DNA of 64,000 bases from Planktothrix rubescens CCAP 1459/22 (GTDB lineage Bacteria > Cyanobacteriota > Cyanobacteriia > Cyanobacteriales > Microcoleaceae): positions 2,660,001-2,724,000 of the forward strand of contig LR882958.1 in NCBI GenBank assembly GCA_904830895.1, in the 5' to 3' direction. The position numbers and the translations under genes are program-made. The notes under the pieces are model-generated. The model was not told the origin of the DNA. It saw only the letters and a program-made list of their open reading frames with translations, and searched no databases. Positions 34,520-45,756 of this stretch are shown here, in pieces. Within the stretch, counting starts at the first letter, position 1. Every line of letters starts with the position of its first letter.

Positions 34520-35227
34520 TTATTCGGGGTTAATTCCAAGCGATCGCAACTGTTCTGCTAACCTTTCAGCCCGTTGACGTTCCTGTTCTGCTTGTTGTTC
34601 AACTGCTTGTAAACGCTGTTGAGTTTGTTCAACCTCCTGTAACGCCGTATTGAGTTGTTGAGAAATGTCTAAATAACTAACAAAAGGTTGACCATCGGGA
34701 CGATAAAGTTTTAATTCTTCCTCAGAACAATTAAAACGAATTCCCAAACGAGGACTCACCCAATTTTCCATTATTTCAATCACTTCTAAACCATTTTCTC
34801 CCCGTAACCAACCCGTCAAATCATTCTTATCTGGATCATAAATATAGTATTCTTCCACACCATAACGTTGATAAAAGACCTGCTTTTTATTCATTTCCGT
34901 CAAGGTATTTCCCGGGGAAAGAATTTCAAAGGCGACTTGGGGGGAAATGTGATTTTCTTTCCACTGCATATAAGATCCGCGATCGCCTTTAGGAACACCA
35001 AATATTACCATAACATCCGGTGCTTGACGGATTTTATTATTTCCCTCAACAGCATACCAAAGTAAATCACCCGCCACAAATACGTTAGGATCATTAGCAA
35101 ATAACCATTCTAAATTATGGTAAATAACCGTAATCCAGCGAAATTGTTTGGTATTATCTGACATGGGTTTGCCATCGCTATCGGGGTAAATAATATCGGT
35201 TTTTGATCGTTCTTCTATTCCAACCAT
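34520..35227 (-). CDS. Uma2-family putative restriction endonuclease
   Basis: A 235-residue protein of the Uma2 (DUF820) family, very abundant in cyanobacteria. It has IIYPDSDGKPMSDN, VFVAGDLLWYAVEGN, APDVMVIFGVPKGDRGSYMQW, the PD-(D/E)XK-like QVAFEILSPGNT and YYIYDPDKNDLTGWLR. The last 50 residues are a Gln-rich coiled coil (QVEQTQQRLQAVEQQAEQERQ is the style). Activity of these proteins is not established. The start has a strong CAGGAGGGTT site. Confidence 0.88.
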   Translation of the reverse strand: MVGIEERSKTDIIYPDSDGKPMSDNTKQFRWITVIYHNLEWLFANDPNVFVAGDLLWYAVEGNNKIRQAPDVMVIFGVPKGDRGSYMQWKENHISPQVAFEILSPGNTLTEMNKKQVFYQRYGVEEYYIYDPDKNDLTGWLRGENGLEVIEIMENWVSPRLGIRFNCSEEELKLYRPDGQPFVSYLDISQQLNTALQEVEQTQQRLQAVEQQAEQERQRAERLAEQLRSLGINPE

Positions 35228-35265: not shown

Positions 35266-35820
35266 TTATCTAATAGTAGCATTTTTCCACCAACTCAGCA
35301 AAGGATGATTTCTATGGGGAATATACCGTCCTTTAACTTGGATATTATCAAGTACAGTCCGTAATTCTTCTGAATTAAGGTTAGCTGATTCTGACCAATA
35401 TTTAATGATTTCTAAGGTTGAAAAAATCTGTAGATTAAGTCCTTCTTTTTGACAAAATGTGATCGCTTTTTTATCATCTGTTGCCATAGCATATTCTCGA
35501 TGAACAGCGATCGCACAAGTCGCTGATTCACCATCATCTCCAAGTTCAAAGACATAATTAATATAAGTTTCTTCCTCAGCTTCTGACTCAAAATCTACAA
35601 CTATAAGTAGATCTTGCTCAATCGCCATCTGCAACTGAACTGCGCCCTCGTTTTCCTGATTTTCAAGTTTTTGTAGGGTCAATAGTTCGCGTGCTTTAAC
35701 TACTTCTGTCACCACAACCTGGGCTGGAATAGCCTTTAAGATTGGTAGGAAATTGCCCGACGCGCAAAAGTTTAAAATACAGCAAGCATCAAGAACAAGA
35801 TGGGAGTGTTGAATCAACAT
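35266..35820 (-). CDS. PIN-like domain protein, last gene of the QueC-like operon
   Basis: A 184-residue protein with a PIN-type acidic set: LVLDACCILNF (first Asp), a conserved helix with VVVTEVVKARELL, LGDDGESATCAIAVHREY (Asp/Glu) and MATDDKKAITFCQ (last Asp). Such domains are Mg-dependent ribonucleases and often act as toxins. The ATG at 35820 is preferred, since GGGAG lies eight bases upstream; an ATG at 35835 would include that site. It follows the XRE-ImmA gene by 18 bases. The XRE-ImmA/IrrE protein beside it is a plausible antitoxin or regulator (inference). Confidence 0.75.
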   Translation of the reverse strand: MLIQHSHLVLDACCILNFCASGNFLPILKAIPAQVVVTEVVKARELLTLQKLENQENEGAVQLQMAIEQDLLIVVDFESEAEEETYINYVFELGDDGESATCAIAVHREYAMATDDKKAITFCQKEGLNLQIFSTLEIIKYWSESANLNSEELRTVLDNIQVKGRYIPHRNHPLLSWWKNATIR

Positions 35821-35838
35821 AAAAAATTCTCCCAAATT

Positions 35839-37032
35839 CTACGGTTGACGTAAATCTAAATGGGCAATTTCCTCTATCATTCCACTTGAATAATCCCGTA
35901 ATAATTCCGCAATCCGACGAGCTTCTATACGATCAACCCCTAAGAAATTGGCAAAACGTCCTTCTGTAATCAGCCCTTGATCGAAAGCTTCAATTGCAAG
36001 GTATTGATAGTGAATGGGAAGCATATCAGTGCGCTGTGGAATTTCTTCTAACCCAAGTTCTTGTTGAACTTTTCTAACTTTTAATCCGCGATCGCGCAGT
36101 CGATCCACAGTACCAGAAGGTATCAGTTTTATAGATTCTAAACGATTACCAAGGGCTTCAATAGATACCCCATAATAATGAGCTAAGGTAAATAAATTAG
36201 TGGGAGTAAACTTCCCGTGAGTCTGGTACATATCATTAAATCGTTTAAGTAAACCACTGGTTGGCATTAGAAAATAGTCAGGGAAACTGTCAGCTAGTCG
36301 TTCAGTATCTGGCTTTCTTTGGTATTGATTTTCATAGTCAAGTACAGGCTTGCGTCGATGCGCTAGAAAATGAAGATATTCATGAGCAAGTGACCAACGC
36401 CGCCGATCTTCTGGGTGTTTAGCATTAATCGCAATACAGCCACCAAGTTGTTCATCGTAGCTATATACACCTGAATATTTAGATGGCATTTCCAAATAGA
36501 AAATACGCAGTCCTACGCTCTGTTCTAAAACATCCCTAAGAATGGGAATCGGGCTATCACCAAGCCCTAATCGTTGACGTTCTGCAATGGCAATACTTTC
36601 TGCTGCTGCCTCTATTGGCATATTCGTTACATCATATTCTTGAGGATAATTCCGAGGTAAAGGAGCATCCATAATTTTCTCAAGTTCTAAATAGTTTTGA
36701 CAGAGTTCCTCTAAGCGCCAAATTGCCGGATTAATTTGGGCTTCTTCTGTCTCGCTACGTCGATAAGCGGCGCGAAATTGAACTTCAAACGGCTCAATAA
36801 TAGGGCTTTGTCGAACAAAATTACTAACAGCCTGCCCATAAGCACGAGCCAGTTTAATTAGTTCGTTGGGTTTAAGGCGACGTTCTCCTTTTTCAATAGC
36901 AACAATAGTTGTTCTTGCAGCATCAATAATTTGAGCGGCATCAGCTTGAGTCATGCCAGATTTCTTCCGCGCTTGTTGCAGTCGTTCACCCAATTGGCGG
37001 AGATCAATTTTATCGAGAATGTTAACAGTCAT
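35839..37032 (-). CDS. XRE-family regulator with ImmA/IrrE metallopeptidase domain
   Basis: A 397-residue protein. Residues 14-70 are an XRE-type HTH (LGERLQQARKKSGMTQADAAQIIDAARTTIVAIEKGERR is the block, with the MTQADAA helix). Residues about 130-300 form the ImmA/IrrE (COG2856) domain with the zinc motif H217-EYL-H221 in SLAHEYLHFLAH and SYDEQLGGCIAINAKH before it. ImmA-type proteins cleave repressors, often their own or a neighbouring one, on induction. In this operon it probably senses and controls expression, or neutralises the PIN protein. It begins 12 bases after the QueC-like gene stops, with GAAGGA as ribosome site. Confidence 0.88.
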   Translation of the reverse strand: MTVNILDKIDLRQLGERLQQARKKSGMTQADAAQIIDAARTTIVAIEKGERRLKPNELIKLARAYGQAVSNFVRQSPIIEPFEVQFRAAYRRSETEEAQINPAIWRLEELCQNYLELEKIMDAPLPRNYPQEYDVTNMPIEAAAESIAIAERQRLGLGDSPIPILRDVLEQSVGLRIFYLEMPSKYSGVYSYDEQLGGCIAINAKHPEDRRRWSLAHEYLHFLAHRRKPVLDYENQYQRKPDTERLADSFPDYFLMPTSGLLKRFNDMYQTHGKFTPTNLFTLAHYYGVSIEALGNRLESIKLIPSGTVDRLRDRGLKVRKVQQELGLEEIPQRTDMLPIHYQYLAIEAFDQGLITEGRFANFLGVDRIEARRIAELLRDYSSGMIEEIAHLDLRQP

Positions 37033-37044
37033 AATGTTTTTCCT

Positions 37045-38496
37045 TCAACTTGACTGAACAGTAACTAGACGTTGATCTGATATCTGGTGATTGTTTTCTT
37101 GATCTAACATACCAACCGAAATTTGTGGCTCTACCGCATCCCATTCAGAAAGATACGTTTGATAAAGCTGTATTAGACGTTGTTGCATTTGAAAAGGTAA
37201 CAGATTTTCTGATTCAGAACTTTGATCCACAATATCCTCTAGTTCTAAGAATCTTTTGGTTAAATTCTGCCACTGAAGGTTAGGGTTAGTTGAATTATTC
37301 AGCAACTTTTTGAGCATGGTAACTTGTTCGAGCATATTTTGCAGATACAAGCTTGGATCTCCTGCTGGTTTTTCGCCATGAAGCACAACATAACGGGTTT
37401 GATCGTTCATATTTGAAGCAGCGATCGCTTGCCGTCTTAAAAGGCAGGAAGAACAATATCCACATTGAAAGATTTGCTTCTTGCGATGTGGACTATCACA
37501 TGAAACTGTTAGCGATACTAAGTTGTTTCTGTCATCTTCAGCTAAAGCTTTGCACATTTGAGCTTTAGTCCAAAATAGGAAAGGATTTTTTATTCTAAAT
37601 TCTTGTCCTAAAAGCTCTGAAACAATATCGCTCACCATAATTAAAGTCAATGGGTGAACAGATCGAGTGTGATCTAATCCAACAGCAGATTTACGGTAGG
37701 GAAGATTGATTGCACCAATTCCATTTTCATAAACAAAAAGCTCTTTCTGACCCATCAAATAAGCACAAGCCGAACCCAATAATGTAAATACAACACCTCG
37801 CGCACGGGAAATTTTATTTTTTCGATGCTGTTTGCTATCAGAAAAATGAATTGGAACTCGGCAAAGGTTGAGACGATTGGGGAAATATGGATTGAGTGCT
37901 TTGAAGACTTTTTGCTGAAGATCATGGGTATTATGATTACTCCCAGTTCCAAACAACATAAACGGCTCTGTATCACTGGCTTGAAGTCTGGTATAAAGAC
38001 CTGCAAGAGCATCAAGTCCGCCACTCCACAATGCTACCTCACACCCTTCAGGAACGATGGGAAGAATTTGCTGTTTTTCAATTGTTCGGTCTAGTGTAGT
38101 TCGTTTTTGGAAATCAAAAGACCATCGGCTCCCAGTAGTCCATTCAAGCAAATTTTCTAATTTTGCATGAAATATACTGGTATTTAGTAATTCGGGATGA
38201 CGCACAGGAAGCACTACAAAAATATGCCTCTGCTCTTGGTGTAAATGTTGTAAGACAAGACGATCACTAGCTTGGATTGCAACCGCTAGGTCAATTAGAT
38301 CAGCAATGATTGATGGAAATTCCTGCCAGACGCGATATTTAAAATCCTGATCATCTACAGTAATTCCTATAGTGCTTTCCTTACCGCTTGAGTGATCGAT
38401 AAATCGAACCTTTCCATTACTATTCAAAATGGAGTCAAAGTGTAACGTATAATCGCTATCGTAGGTGTAGTGTTTTTTCATAATATTTAACCTCAT
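37045..38496 (-). CDS. QueC-like ATP pyrophosphatase
   Basis: A 483-residue protein related to QueC (7-cyano-7-deazaguanine synthase), but twice its usual size. Residues 1-145 are a specific N-terminal domain (IFVVLPVRHPELLN near 92-105, then WTTGSRWSFDF). The P-loop is SGGLDALAG (158-166), with Ala where QueC has Ser. RARGVVFTLLGSACAYL, ENGIGAINLPYR and the zinc set C333, C345, C348, C351 (QCGYCSSC) match QueC. The last 110 residues are extra. QueC-like proteins of this kind are known in defence systems (QatC of Qat; type IV CBASS), and no other queuosine gene is here. Its start overlaps the previous stop as ATGA; an ATG at 38481 is an alternative. Confidence 0.85.
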   Translation of the reverse strand: MRLNIMKKHYTYDSDYTLHFDSILNSNGKVRFIDHSSGKESTIGITVDDQDFKYRVWQEFPSIIADLIDLAVAIQASDRLVLQHLHQEQRHIFVVLPVRHPELLNTSIFHAKLENLLEWTTGSRWSFDFQKRTTLDRTIEKQQILPIVPEGCEVALWSGGLDALAGLYTRLQASDTEPFMLFGTGSNHNTHDLQQKVFKALNPYFPNRLNLCRVPIHFSDSKQHRKNKISRARGVVFTLLGSACAYLMGQKELFVYENGIGAINLPYRKSAVGLDHTRSVHPLTLIMVSDIVSELLGQEFRIKNPFLFWTKAQMCKALAEDDRNNLVSLTVSCDSPHRKKQIFQCGYCSSCLLRRQAIAASNMNDQTRYVVLHGEKPAGDPSLYLQNMLEQVTMLKKLLNNSTNPNLQWQNLTKRFLELEDIVDQSSESENLLPFQMQQRLIQLYQTYLSEWDAVEPQISVGMLDQENNHQISDQRLVTVQSS

Positions 38497-39116
38497 CGAA
38501 GGTCTTCATTTAGGTCTATTGGTTTTTGTGCAGAACGGTGAGGTATAGGCAATTTTTCTATACTGTGATGTTTAATAGCAGTTTTAGCCCATTTGCCTAT
38601 AACATCATCGATAATTGGCTTAATTTCTCCAATACGTTTTGAAAGAGTTGCTTGATCAATTCCGTCATGATGTGTAGAGGTGAGTGGAACCCGTTCCTTA
38701 AATTCAGATTCATAGACAGTTTTCATGTATCTGTGCAAAAATGTTTCTATAGTGTTACTAGAATCTATGTATTGTCCATATCTGAAATCGTGAAGTAAGC
38801 TCTTGCCAGTGAGACGAACAACTTCTTTCAAGCGATGTGAGCCATCGGCTTGTTGCACTAACTTATCAAATTCCAGAGTCAAACCAGCCCAGTTCACAGG
38901 GCTATTCTCAGCAGCACTAATAGCTCTATCTAAAATCTCCGCCATGGTTTGGGCAAGCTGAACAGGAAGATCTCCTTTTTTCACAATGTCCTTCTTGAAT
39001 GCTTGCATAAGAACATGAGCACACTCATCAATCGTTGCTTTTCCTTCACAAAGCCACTTATAAGGCTTTTGATAAATCCCTCCGAGCCTGCTGTGAATAA
39101 TATCTCCATCAGCCAT
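38493..39116 (-). CDS. Unknown protein heading the QueC-like operon
   Basis: A 207-residue protein with no domain that I recognise. It is mainly helical, begins MADGDIIHSRLGGIYQKPYK, has LTLEFDKLVQQADGSHRLKEVVR in the centre and a basic end (IKHHSIEKLPIPHRSAQKP). The start is clear: a full Shine-Dalgarno, GGAGGTGA, lies five bases upstream of the ATG, which is stronger than for most genes here and may reflect a foreign origin. Its stop overlaps the start of the QueC-like gene by four bases, so the two are translationally coupled and probably act together. It could correspond functionally to the poorly understood partner proteins of other QueC-like systems; this is speculation. Confidence 0.7.
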   Translation of the reverse strand: MADGDIIHSRLGGIYQKPYKWLCEGKATIDECAHVLMQAFKKDIVKKGDLPVQLAQTMAEILDRAISAAENSPVNWAGLTLEFDKLVQQADGSHRLKEVVRLTGKSLLHDFRYGQYIDSSNTIETFLHRYMKTVYESEFKERVPLTSTHHDGIDQATLSKRIGEIKPIIDDVIGKWAKTAIKHHSIEKLPIPHRSAQKPIDLNEDLR

Positions 39117-39762
39117 AACATCACCTCCAACAGTTGGGGTTTCTTTTCACTCTCATGGTAGTGTCCCAACCTGTCATTGTCAAGTGTTAAAATTATTTTT
39201 TTTTAAAAATGTCAGATTTTGACGAGAAGAATAGTAACGACGCCCCGGTACAGATTAAATGCCATTTCTGATCTAGGAATATTAATCTTTGTAAACAAAG
39301 ATTAAAGAGTCAGGTTTTATTAACAGGACTTACGCAATTGCGTAAGTCCTGTTTTAGTTAAATTTCCTTACGTTCTATAGAAAAGCCTTGACCTATATGA
39401 TGATAGTCATTGGAGGCTGGGCGATCGCTCCTATTTGAGTCACCTCCTCAAGTCAAACCATGGGAGCGATCGCAGTTGCAGAACTCAAAACCTATAGAGT
39501 ACATTTTTTCCATCACCCATAGCAAGATTGGCTATTCCCCGCCCTCCAAGAATCAAACAACCATTACGGGGTAATTTATTTAGGCTTTATTGAAGCTAAA
39601 TTTATGTTAAGGGTTAAAATATAAGGACAACGGTTTTGACTAGACTGATCACCTTGTAATCCGGTATACTACCAGGTGCTTAGGTATCCTGTTAAACCTT
39701 AAATACTTAGGTTCACAGGTGAAATTCAGATCAGCCAGCGAACTTCTCAGGAAAAGTAAAAA
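39117..39762. other. Intergenic region with a 32-base palindrome and HIP1 sites
   Basis: 646 bases between the QueC-like operon and the DUF6679 gene. It contains a perfect palindrome at 39322-39353 and two HIP1 octamers (GCGATCGC) near 39421 and 39465 within inverted surroundings. A run of eight T at 39195 is not preceded by a good hairpin. No ORF with coding character was seen. Confidence 0.5.
39322..39353. repeat. Perfect 32-base palindrome
   Basis: AACAGGACTTACGCAA is followed directly by its reverse complement, with no loop. The arm shares the AGGACTTACGCA end of the element at 15366, so this looks like two element ends joined with the interior lost. Confidence 0.9.
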
Positions 39763-41644: not shown

Positions 41645-42820
41645 ATGCTATTTGCGCCCGTTGAAGAAAAAATGTGGGAGAAATCTTCCTCAAAACGTCA
41701 AAAAAAAATGTCTGATGGAGAAATTAATGATAAATACTCCTCACAAGAAAACCGAATTCTAACTGAAATTAATCGGGAAAAACTCCCTAGCTTTGCTGAA
41801 GCTTTAAAGAAAAAAGGATATATGAATGTACAGCCCGTTTACCAAAGAAGACCCCGATGGGATGCCAAGATGAAGTCACGATTAATTGAGTCATTCCTAA
41901 TTAATATTCCTGTTCCGCCCATTATTCTGTTTGAAGAAGATTACAATTCTTATGAAGTCATGGATGGTCAACAGAGAATTACAGCAATTAGAGAGTTCTA
42001 TGAAAACAAACTCAAACTAACGGGACTCGAACTTTGGCCAGAAATCAATGGACGTACTTATGATCAACTTCCAATTAAAGTTAAAGCAGGAATTGATCGA
42101 CGATCTATTTCATCTATTGTTATTATTGCAGAATCAACTTCTGATCCTGAAATAGCTTTTTTCCTCAAACAGAAAAGTTTTGAACGTTTTAATACCGGAG
42201 GCGTAGATTTAAGTCAGCAGGAAGTACGGAATTGTTTGTATCAGGGGAAGTTTAATTCATTATTGCTGGAATTATCTCGTGATCCTATCTTTACTCAATC
42301 TTGGGGAATTCCTACAGATGAAAATGACCCTGATTTATTAAACAATAATCTTTATAAAAAAATGGAGGATGCAGAATTAGTGCTTCGTTTCTTTGCCTTG
42401 AGGAATGTAGACCATTTTCAACGGGGAATGGAAGGATTTCTTGATCTTTATATGATCAAAAGTTTAAAATTTTCTGATCAGGATATTTTAATCCTAAAGG
42501 AAGTATTTTTAAAAACAATTAATCTAGCTTACCAAATTTATAATGATAATTTATTCAAACCCTTCGATCCAAAATCTATGACTTGTTGGAAGAAAGATTC
42601 CTATAAAGCTTATTATGATGCGGTCATGGTTGGATTTAATCGACATTTGGATGAAAGAGAAATTTTAATCAATAAAAAAACAAGAATTATTGAAGAAACA
42701 AAGAAACTCTTTGAACGGGAAGAATCACGTCTTTTAACAGGAGGTGGGAAAAGTAAAGCGGAAATTCAGCAACGAATCCAACTCTTTGATGATATGCTAT
42801 CGCAGGTTATTGGAGAATAG
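41645..42820 (+). CDS. DUF262 domain protein
   Basis: A 391-residue protein. From about residue 50 it has VQPVYQRRPRWDAKMKSRLIESFLINIPVPPIILFEE and YEVMDGQQRITAIREFYEN, the DUF262 (ParB/Srx-like) domain, with the DGQQR motif intact. The C-terminal half is helical and includes RFNTGGVDLSQQEVRNCLY. DUF262 is the N-terminal part of GmrSD-type modification-dependent nucleases, but the C-terminal DUF1524 HNH motif is not seen, so it may be an NTPase-like sensor. The start at 41645 has a GGAG site; an in-frame ATG at 41708 is an alternative. The following small gene starts six bases later. Confidence 0.82.
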   Translation: MLFAPVEEKMWEKSSSKRQKKMSDGEINDKYSSQENRILTEINREKLPSFAEALKKKGYMNVQPVYQRRPRWDAKMKSRLIESFLINIPVPPIILFEEDYNSYEVMDGQQRITAIREFYENKLKLTGLELWPEINGRTYDQLPIKVKAGIDRRSISSIVIIAESTSDPEIAFFLKQKSFERFNTGGVDLSQQEVRNCLYQGKFNSLLLELSRDPIFTQSWGIPTDENDPDLLNNNLYKKMEDAELVLRFFALRNVDHFQRGMEGFLDLYMIKSLKFSDQDILILKEVFLKTINLAYQIYNDNLFKPFDPKSMTCWKKDSYKAYYDAVMVGFNRHLDEREILINKKTRIIEETKKLFEREESRLLTGGGKSKAEIQQRIQLFDDMLSQVIGE

Positions 42821-45153: not shown

Positions 45154-45756
45154 ATGATTAATTCTCTCAACATAGCTCGCTATTTTATTGTAAAAGCTTA
45201 TCAGGATGGTATAGAAGCAGAAATGACAAATATGAAAGTACAAAAACTTTTATATTATGCACAAAGCTTATATTTAGCCCTCTATGATCAGCCTTTATTT
45301 GAAGAAGAAATTCAAGATTGGCGTTATGGCCCTGTTTGTCCTCCTGCTTATCAATATTATAGTGAATTTGAAGCCAATCAACTCCCAATTCCTGACGCAG
45401 AAATTATCTTAGAAATTCCTGATGATCAGAAGTCAGTTTTAGAAGAAGTTTGGGATTATTTTGGCGGGTATCACGCTTATAGATTAAGTGGGATGACTCA
45501 CCTAGAATTTCCTTGGAAAAAAGCACGTCAGGGTTTATCCTCAGAAGCAAGATCAACTCAACCAATTTTGATTGAGGATATGAAAGCATTAGGATATCAA
45601 AAATTAGACGTTATAGAACGAGATCATCCGGCTTATGAACCTGTAATGTCTGAAGTTTTGAAAGATACTATAACTTCCGTAAATAATCAATCAGAACCTT
45701 CAACTCTTATTCATAAAGGAGAAGTGCGTGACTGGATTAACTCCCTTCTCGATTGA
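45154..45756 (+). CDS. Panacea (DUF4065) domain protein
   Basis: A 200-residue protein of the Panacea/SocA family: NIARYFIVKAYQDGIEAEMTNMKVQKLLYYAQSLYLALYDQPLFEEEIQDWRYGPV is the pattern, with KVQKLLYYAQ and DWRYGPV as hallmarks. Panacea domains act as antitoxins in many toxin-antitoxin pairs and as proteolytic adaptors (SocA). No toxin is evident beside it; the neighbour to the right is a HicB-like protein. C-terminal residues 145-200 are less conserved. Confidence 0.85.
   Translation: MINSLNIARYFIVKAYQDGIEAEMTNMKVQKLLYYAQSLYLALYDQPLFEEEIQDWRYGPVCPPAYQYYSEFEANQLPIPDAEIILEIPDDQKSVLEEVWDYFGGYHAYRLSGMTHLEFPWKKARQGLSSEARSTQPILIEDMKALGYQKLDVIERDHPAYEPVMSEVLKDTITSVNNQSEPSTLIHKGEVRDWINSLLD

Follow-up and report, generated by a model that had tools for sequence, protein, structure and literature searches.

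QatC, the QueC-family protein of qatABCD operons, carries the motifs RxRxxxF, ExG, HP and PxxxxTK together with a CGxC...RR zinc region, according to PMC13329287, and PMC13279940 calls open both the action of QatC on QatB and the route to phage arrest. XRE/COG2856 proteins paired with PIN proteins are a recognised toxin-antitoxin combination (PMC2701414), and the pairing is also mentioned in PMC10440598. Here we describe an operon in a 64,000-nucleotide stretch (the window) of the 5.7-Mb genome of Planktothrix rubescens CCAP 1459/22 in which a relative of QatC is joined to a predicted pair of this second kind. A preliminary description of the window had reported four minus-strand genes, the first two sharing a four-base ATGA overlap and the others separated by gaps of 12 and 18 bases, all of which we verified in the sequence. 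We call these genes A (207 amino acids), B (483 amino acids, QueC-like), C (397 amino acids, XRE-M78) and D (184 amino acids). The four-gene cassette is a real conserved unit found in two phyla. Our preferred reading, a tentative one to which we give a little less than an even chance, is that an immune core of the Qat type works together with a toxin-antitoxin arm whose toxin is an RNase.

Conservation was examined in two genome draws, 386 genomes from the phylum of the window ("cyanobacterial" is used in this sense) and 388 from its order. The phylum draw has matches to B in 13 genomes, to A in 12, to C in 23 and to D in 23. Two of the 13 B matches (G170 and G113, the latter on a 3.4-kb contig) were read by eye as Qat loci with QatA-like, MGTS-type QatB, QatC and TatD-like genes, and the remaining 11 form the clade of this cassette. 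There are 28 B matches in the order draw, among them two (G471, G546) at about 30% identity with no A, C or D, the three genes checked for, beside them. Both draws combined give 27 clade genomes, and in 17 of them each of the four genes reaches a coverage of at least 93%. A is missing through a contig end in G629 and G464 and broken in G022, D is broken in G305 and G450, A and B are fused by deletion in G087 and G490, and the cassettes of G440, G644 and G233 are decayed. The same cassette occurs in a Snowella metagenome-assembled genome, whose contig is also present among the order genomes (G133). The preliminary description would have been contradicted by a QueC-like gene that always stands apart from the other two; the opposite is seen, since C adjoins B in 22/22 clade copies with B coverage of at least 80%, a count that does not represent independent events because the genomes are related. 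Within the genus of the window B is rare, being found in one of ten order-draw genomes (the window's own); another of the ten, of the same species, lacks a match. Ratios of nonsynonymous to synonymous substitution (dN/dS), calculated for six locus pairs with genes intact in both members, are 0.22-0.41 for A, which changes fastest, 0.15-0.21 for B, 0.06-0.10 for C and 0.18-0.27 for D.

The shared gene order that the preliminary description proposed to look for in other genomes also extends to alphaproteobacterial plasmids, which were reached through D and then through the B protein of Methylocystis. A plasmid search with D gave one record, from Methylocystis rosea (NZ_CP044329.1), with the identical gene order. 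With its B as the query, 25 plasmid records match at 80% coverage or more, four of them near-identical Labrenzia plasmids, and the 25 best matches to its C fall on these accessions too, each close to the B match. In all 13 of these plasmids that were examined, B', C' and D' follow in order (B' is split in Mesorhizobium) and some gene occupies the A' position. This gene was recognised as A' by sequence in nine plasmids besides Methylocystis, two of them weakly (E = 5e-4 and 0.003) and one of the nine short (S. fredii), and by position and annotation alone in L222, L224 and L226. Profile comparisons between the window clade and the alphaproteobacterial set are strong for B (7.7e-27), C (4.4e-65) and D (6.1e-21); A and A' have the N-terminal motif in common and little else, with no clear similarity (P = 0.065). 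Window B itself matches plasmid and phage records only below 60% identity and below 80% coverage. Seven of the 13 examined plasmids were typed as conjugative. A defence-related gene, a label that is our own, was read from annotation and has no background count, lies in the fetched stretch of 6/11 annotated records: AbiE and AbiJ in L215, Lit in L218, a restriction endonuclease in L220, AbiEii and a DNA methylase in L221, Shedu in L222 and AbiEii in L225.

By structure and profile comparison, B (37045..38496, minus strand, as for all features below) belongs to the QatC family. It matches the solved QatC structures 9vlk (6.6e-25) and 9zee (4.4e-22) and no QueC or Cap9 structure chain up to E = 1, and its profile matches 11 QatC sequences (1.9e-39). 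These matches uphold the earlier linking of this QueC-like enzyme to Qat. On the NCBIfam QatC equivalog model B scores 170.6 bits, below the 280-bit cut-off. Several of the motifs given in PMC13329287 can be read in the B alignment. Residues 277-282, TRSVHP (37651..37668), align with TRTTHP of QatC; the threonines T278 and T280 of its substrate site, as numbered in PMC13279940, correspond to T/S277 and S279, so that the hydroxyls are kept and the site reads T/S-R-S-V-HP in B. Residues 333-351 (37444..37500), with C333, C345, C348 and C351, align with the QatC zinc site, the first cysteine lying 11 residues ahead of the next in the window, versus 19. The family pyrophosphate-binding loop is SGGLDA (residues 158-163, 38008..38025). 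The final serine of SGGxDS is alanine in 9/9 aligned B copies and serine (SGGLDS) in a later copy, L200.

A role for B as a queuosine biosynthesis gene was rejected on its matches to QatC structures, the lack of a QueC chain up to the same E value and the presence of a canonical QueC elsewhere in the genome. We consider it very improbable that the cassette is instead a stress or plasmid-maintenance regulon, outside immunity, in which B makes a small molecule of the 7-deazaguanine type. The genome does contain other 7-deazaguanine genes, QueC and TGT scoring over their cut-offs and QueD- and QueE-like matches below theirs. Against such a regulon stand the structural matches of B, the defence-related neighbours of the plasmid copies and the statement, in PMC13329287, that QatC is unable to replace QueC. 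Two further loci with genes of this kind were observed. A Bradyrhizobium plasmid (CP126019.1; L084 2962-5589) carries a QatB/QatC-like pair whose next gene encodes an ASCH-domain protein (Pfam, 3.4e-4) and not TatD; a QatC-family partner may have been exchanged here too. A Natrinema plasmid (NZ_CP084474.1; L082 2759-5092) has an archaeal QueC-like gene that follows two small uncharacterised genes, and neither QatA nor QatD is annotated next to it.

Gene A (38493..39116), predicted to be all-helical, begins with M-A-D-G-D in the window (codons 1-5, 39102..39116). D3, G4 and D5 are invariant across the alignment, the start reads X-DG(D/P) across copies, and the C-terminal tail, IDLNEDL in the window, is also conserved. 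An MG start occurs in none of the 24 phylum copies or remnants, a tally that includes broken copies and remnants (L018, L022, L070, L074, L203); for L001, L015, L020, L205 and L207 an in-frame start exists upstream and the ATG beside the motif was chosen. The start M/V-GTS, by comparison, is found in 11 of 13 QatB sequences fetched. The hhalign probability between A and QatB is 4.9%, and the registers conflict, with hhalign placing A 119-141 on the last QatB columns and VIA placing A 10-195 on QatB 64-287, so no residue mapping between the two proteins is drawn. The absence of MGTS and the hhalign value led us not to accept A as an ordinary QatB. On the comparison by structure prediction that had been proposed earlier, there is a weak signal in fold and sequence, from which A may be a QatB counterpart.

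Genes C and D very probably stand in a toxin-antitoxin relation. C (35839..37032) combines an XRE helix-turn-helix, an M78 (ImmA/IrrE-like) domain and a UPF0175-like segment (residues 344-371, 35920..36003; a weak Pfam match), and is predicted to be both antitoxin and operon repressor. D (35266..35820) is DUF3368-like with a PIN fold by prediction and has the conserved acids D11, E45, D96 and D115. A match to D is present in 22 of the 23 C-carrying genomes among the 386 searched, some of the D copies being broken. D aligns with DUF3368 PIN proteins over most of its length, with hhalign probabilities of 36% for D against DUF3368 and 68% for the C tail against UPF0175; support for both relations comes from P-values, shuffles and D', the alphaproteobacterial protein (97%). 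The comparison sets were 14/20 DUF3368 loci and 16/20 UPF0175 loci. Of five predictions made for D, the best alone gives a confident PIN model (predicted local distance difference test score 92.5, with 64-70 for the others). C matches the PADLOC model RmrA (4.9e-27) in a library that gives no cut-off and in which C also has matches to further XRE and M78 models, and D matched no PADLOC model, the presence of RmrT models in the library not having been checked.

The preliminary description offered, as one model, that the metallopeptidase-repressor and the PIN RNase are the sensor and toxic arm. The two genes look instead like a toxin-antitoxin pair of a recognised kind, and the protease part is weakened. 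In the window, C residues 217-221 read HEYLH (36370..36384). The glutamate of HExxH is present in just 8/39 phylum copies, with glycine in 29 and aspartate in two, and the metalloprotease-sensor reading is weak because HGYLH or HDYLH stands in 31/39. Proteolysis of the ImmA type was therefore demoted as a general trigger. The motif is kept in 13/13 alphaproteobacterial copies.

Upstream of A, an imperfect palindrome that resembles an operator and includes a -35-like TTGACA (TTGACAATGACA, 39172..39183) is accompanied by a second operator-like site (CTGACATT, 39208..39215) 32 bases farther upstream; a probable ribosome-binding site of A, GGAGG, lies at 39124..39128. A scan in which 18 further loci were not included found a CTGACA-type site followed by a TTGACAwTG-type site ahead of every A start covered (12/12 loci, counting remnants), at a spacing of 32-33 bases in 11 and 41 in L021. 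For the 12 loci without A, the pair lies upstream of C in six and was not found there in the other six (L064, L065, L069, L072, L073, L075). The pair pattern occurs in 7/1242 stretches of 400 bases, the loci themselves included, and the window palindrome alone is unremarkable, with at least three matches in 8/100 shuffles. In the alphaproteobacterial set, TTGACATTGTCA stands 49 bases ahead of A' in 3/13 loci (L215, L221, L223) and TTGACATTG is present in two further loci (L216, L217); the single-site pattern was not found in the remaining 8/13. The obvious candidate for a protein that binds these sites is C.

Relatives of C and D are also carried by viruses. Two IMG/VR contigs (L188 5001-6668 and L189) share 99.5% identity over 11.2 kb. 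Both have C together with a shortened D of 156 amino acids, counted from a TTG start. The 1663-base segment with these two genes has 97.7% identity to the window and 90.7% and 93.2% to two loci of the same genus, and L188 also has thymidylate synthase, thymidylate kinase and anti-repressor genes. A third viral contig, of 188 kb (L190 5001-6170), has a C relative at 60% identity in which HExxH is degenerate by reading, with a terminase small-subunit gene nearby and no D-like open reading frame beside it. Phage records gave two weak C matches, and pattern searches of the viral contigs found no clade relatives of A or B. Our guess is that the phage-borne antitoxin copies would be candidates for counter-defence.

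Intact B never occurs without C, whereas C persists without a B match in 13 genomes (G157, G261, G042, G048, G064, G074, G118, G155, G207, G326, G380, G215, G229), a point on which the earlier interpretation is changed. Ten of these genomes have D as an unbroken single reading frame, G042 and G215 have a broken one and G229 has none. A full-length D lacking C was not found in the genomes searched. Remnants of A or B survive in six of the 13. The last 20 residues of B remain in G157 and G261, the start of A in G118 and A 15-45 in G155. G380 retains the start of A and, about 32 kb away, the end of B, both genes having lost their middles (L074 7491-7646, L075 8247-8297), and a short reading frame in G048, by reading of the locus, fuses the start of A to the end of B. 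On the C tree the presence of A and B needs eight changes, five of them forced by well-supported branches. Gains and losses are not separable on this tree alone, and the remnants show loss for six genomes.

This pattern might be explained by addiction, with C and D an ordinary toxin-antitoxin pair that stabilises a stand-alone Qat-like A and B through a common promoter and no signal. The persistence of C and of unbroken D, the at least five changes in A and B and the six genomes with remnants are all consistent with it. Some phages, moreover, are stopped by QatBC alone (PMC13279940), and a COG2856/XRE toxin-antitoxin locus adjoining a multiubiquitin cassette was interpreted as its stabiliser (PMC4963859). 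We nevertheless regard addiction as rather unlikely, since the operator-like sites upstream of A imply that C probably controls A and B too, the linkage persists across two phyla, and phages with C and a shortened D are not readily explained by it. Less likely again is that A and B are the defence and harmful without C, which would be mainly their repressor or restraint, with D an expendable accessory. In its favour, well-covered B is never without C (22/22), and two of these genomes have a broken D; however, D is under purifying selection with its acidic residues kept, and it is unbroken beside C in 10 of the 13 genomes that lack B, which fits a toxin-antitoxin pair.

A Qat-like core coupled to a toxin-antitoxin arm draws on the gene order, the families of B, C and D, the recurring operator-like sites, the selection and the gene-loss pattern; from these we infer an A-B complex and its reaction, C-D neutralisation, operator binding by C, a signal from A-B to C-D and a phage trigger. 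The operon would then be an anti-phage system, a function we judge likely, with two arms under one repressor. In the first arm, as in QatB-QatC, enzyme B would bind the helical protein A and use ATP to modify its N-terminus, which lies at a fixed distance from the Asp-Gly motif; this modification seems to us slightly favoured. In the second, C would repress the operon through the TTGACAwTGTCA-like operator, and its UPF0175-like tail would keep the PIN RNase D inactive. Infection would change the A-B complex, the change would be relayed to C, and D, once released, would cleave RNA and halt the cell. That A-B signals to D is possible and somewhat doubtful. A bolder and rather improbable proposal is a distinct immune class spread over two phyla or more: a QatC-like enzyme would attach a small molecule to an N-terminus that is not glycine (X-Asp-Gly), one XRE-M78 protein would serve the conjugation pair and the PIN RNase alike as antitoxin and repressor, and phages would carry this antitoxin as a counter-measure. 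The operon is a natural variant with the same enzyme family, another partner N-terminus and, in the PIN toxin, a candidate readout. Should D be under the control of A-B, cleavage of RNA would offer an assay for the QatC reaction, and protein N-terminal modification would be wired to a toxin-antitoxin pair on both chromosomes and plasmids.

Outside the operon, a Uma2 gene (34520-35227) was rejected as a fifth member. No relative of it was found in L001 or L015-L025, and it adjoins D only in two same-genus loci among 12 C loci inspected. The window also encodes a protein with a GmrSD N-terminal domain (41645-42820; Pfam, 3.5e-23) and a SocA/Panacea antitoxin-like protein (45154-45756; Pfam, 1.3e-18).

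The combination of four families had been put forward as new, and we found no description of it in the literature searched, which left out most subscription papers and bioRxiv; in a word search of PMC13329287 the words XRE, ImmA, toxin and cyanobacteria were absent. Type IV CBASS, in which Cap9 acts with a CD-NTase and N-terminal deazaguanylation, likewise has an enzyme of the QueC family next to a protein that is its putative substrate. However, B aligns with QatC, where threonines stand in place of the Tyr/Asp substrate residues (PMC13279940), and no CD-NTase was found by Pfam in ten genes or by PADLOC in the four operon genes. RosmerTA and other XRE/COG2856-PIN pairs, a pairing mentioned in PMC2701414 and PMC10440598, resemble the second arm in that a PIN-like toxin adjoins an antitoxin-like protein of the XRE-ImmA type, and differ in lacking the UPF0175-like antitoxin tail and the QatBC-like pair that shares the operon. 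The UPF0175-DUF3368 (COG2886-PIN) pairs correspond to the C tail and D, the antitoxin segment being fused in C to XRE and M78 domains. To qatABCD the cassette is similar in its QatC relative with substrate-site hydroxyls, HP and zinc cysteines, in the possible QatB-like gene ahead of it, and in the 4-base overlap of A and B in the window, which equals the qatB-qatC overlap of L077, L078 and L079. It differs in having XRE-M78 and PIN proteins in place of the KAP ATPase QatA and the TatD nuclease QatD, neither of which was found by Pfam in the operon or in six genes that flank it, in an A protein that starts X-DG(D/P) rather than with the MGTS of QatB and its essential glycine, and in the SGGLDA loop of aligned phylum copies of B, as opposed to SGGxDS. 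With an equivalog score below the cut-off, no QatA or QatD and no MGTS, the cassette is not a member of qatABCD, although part of it may work alike.

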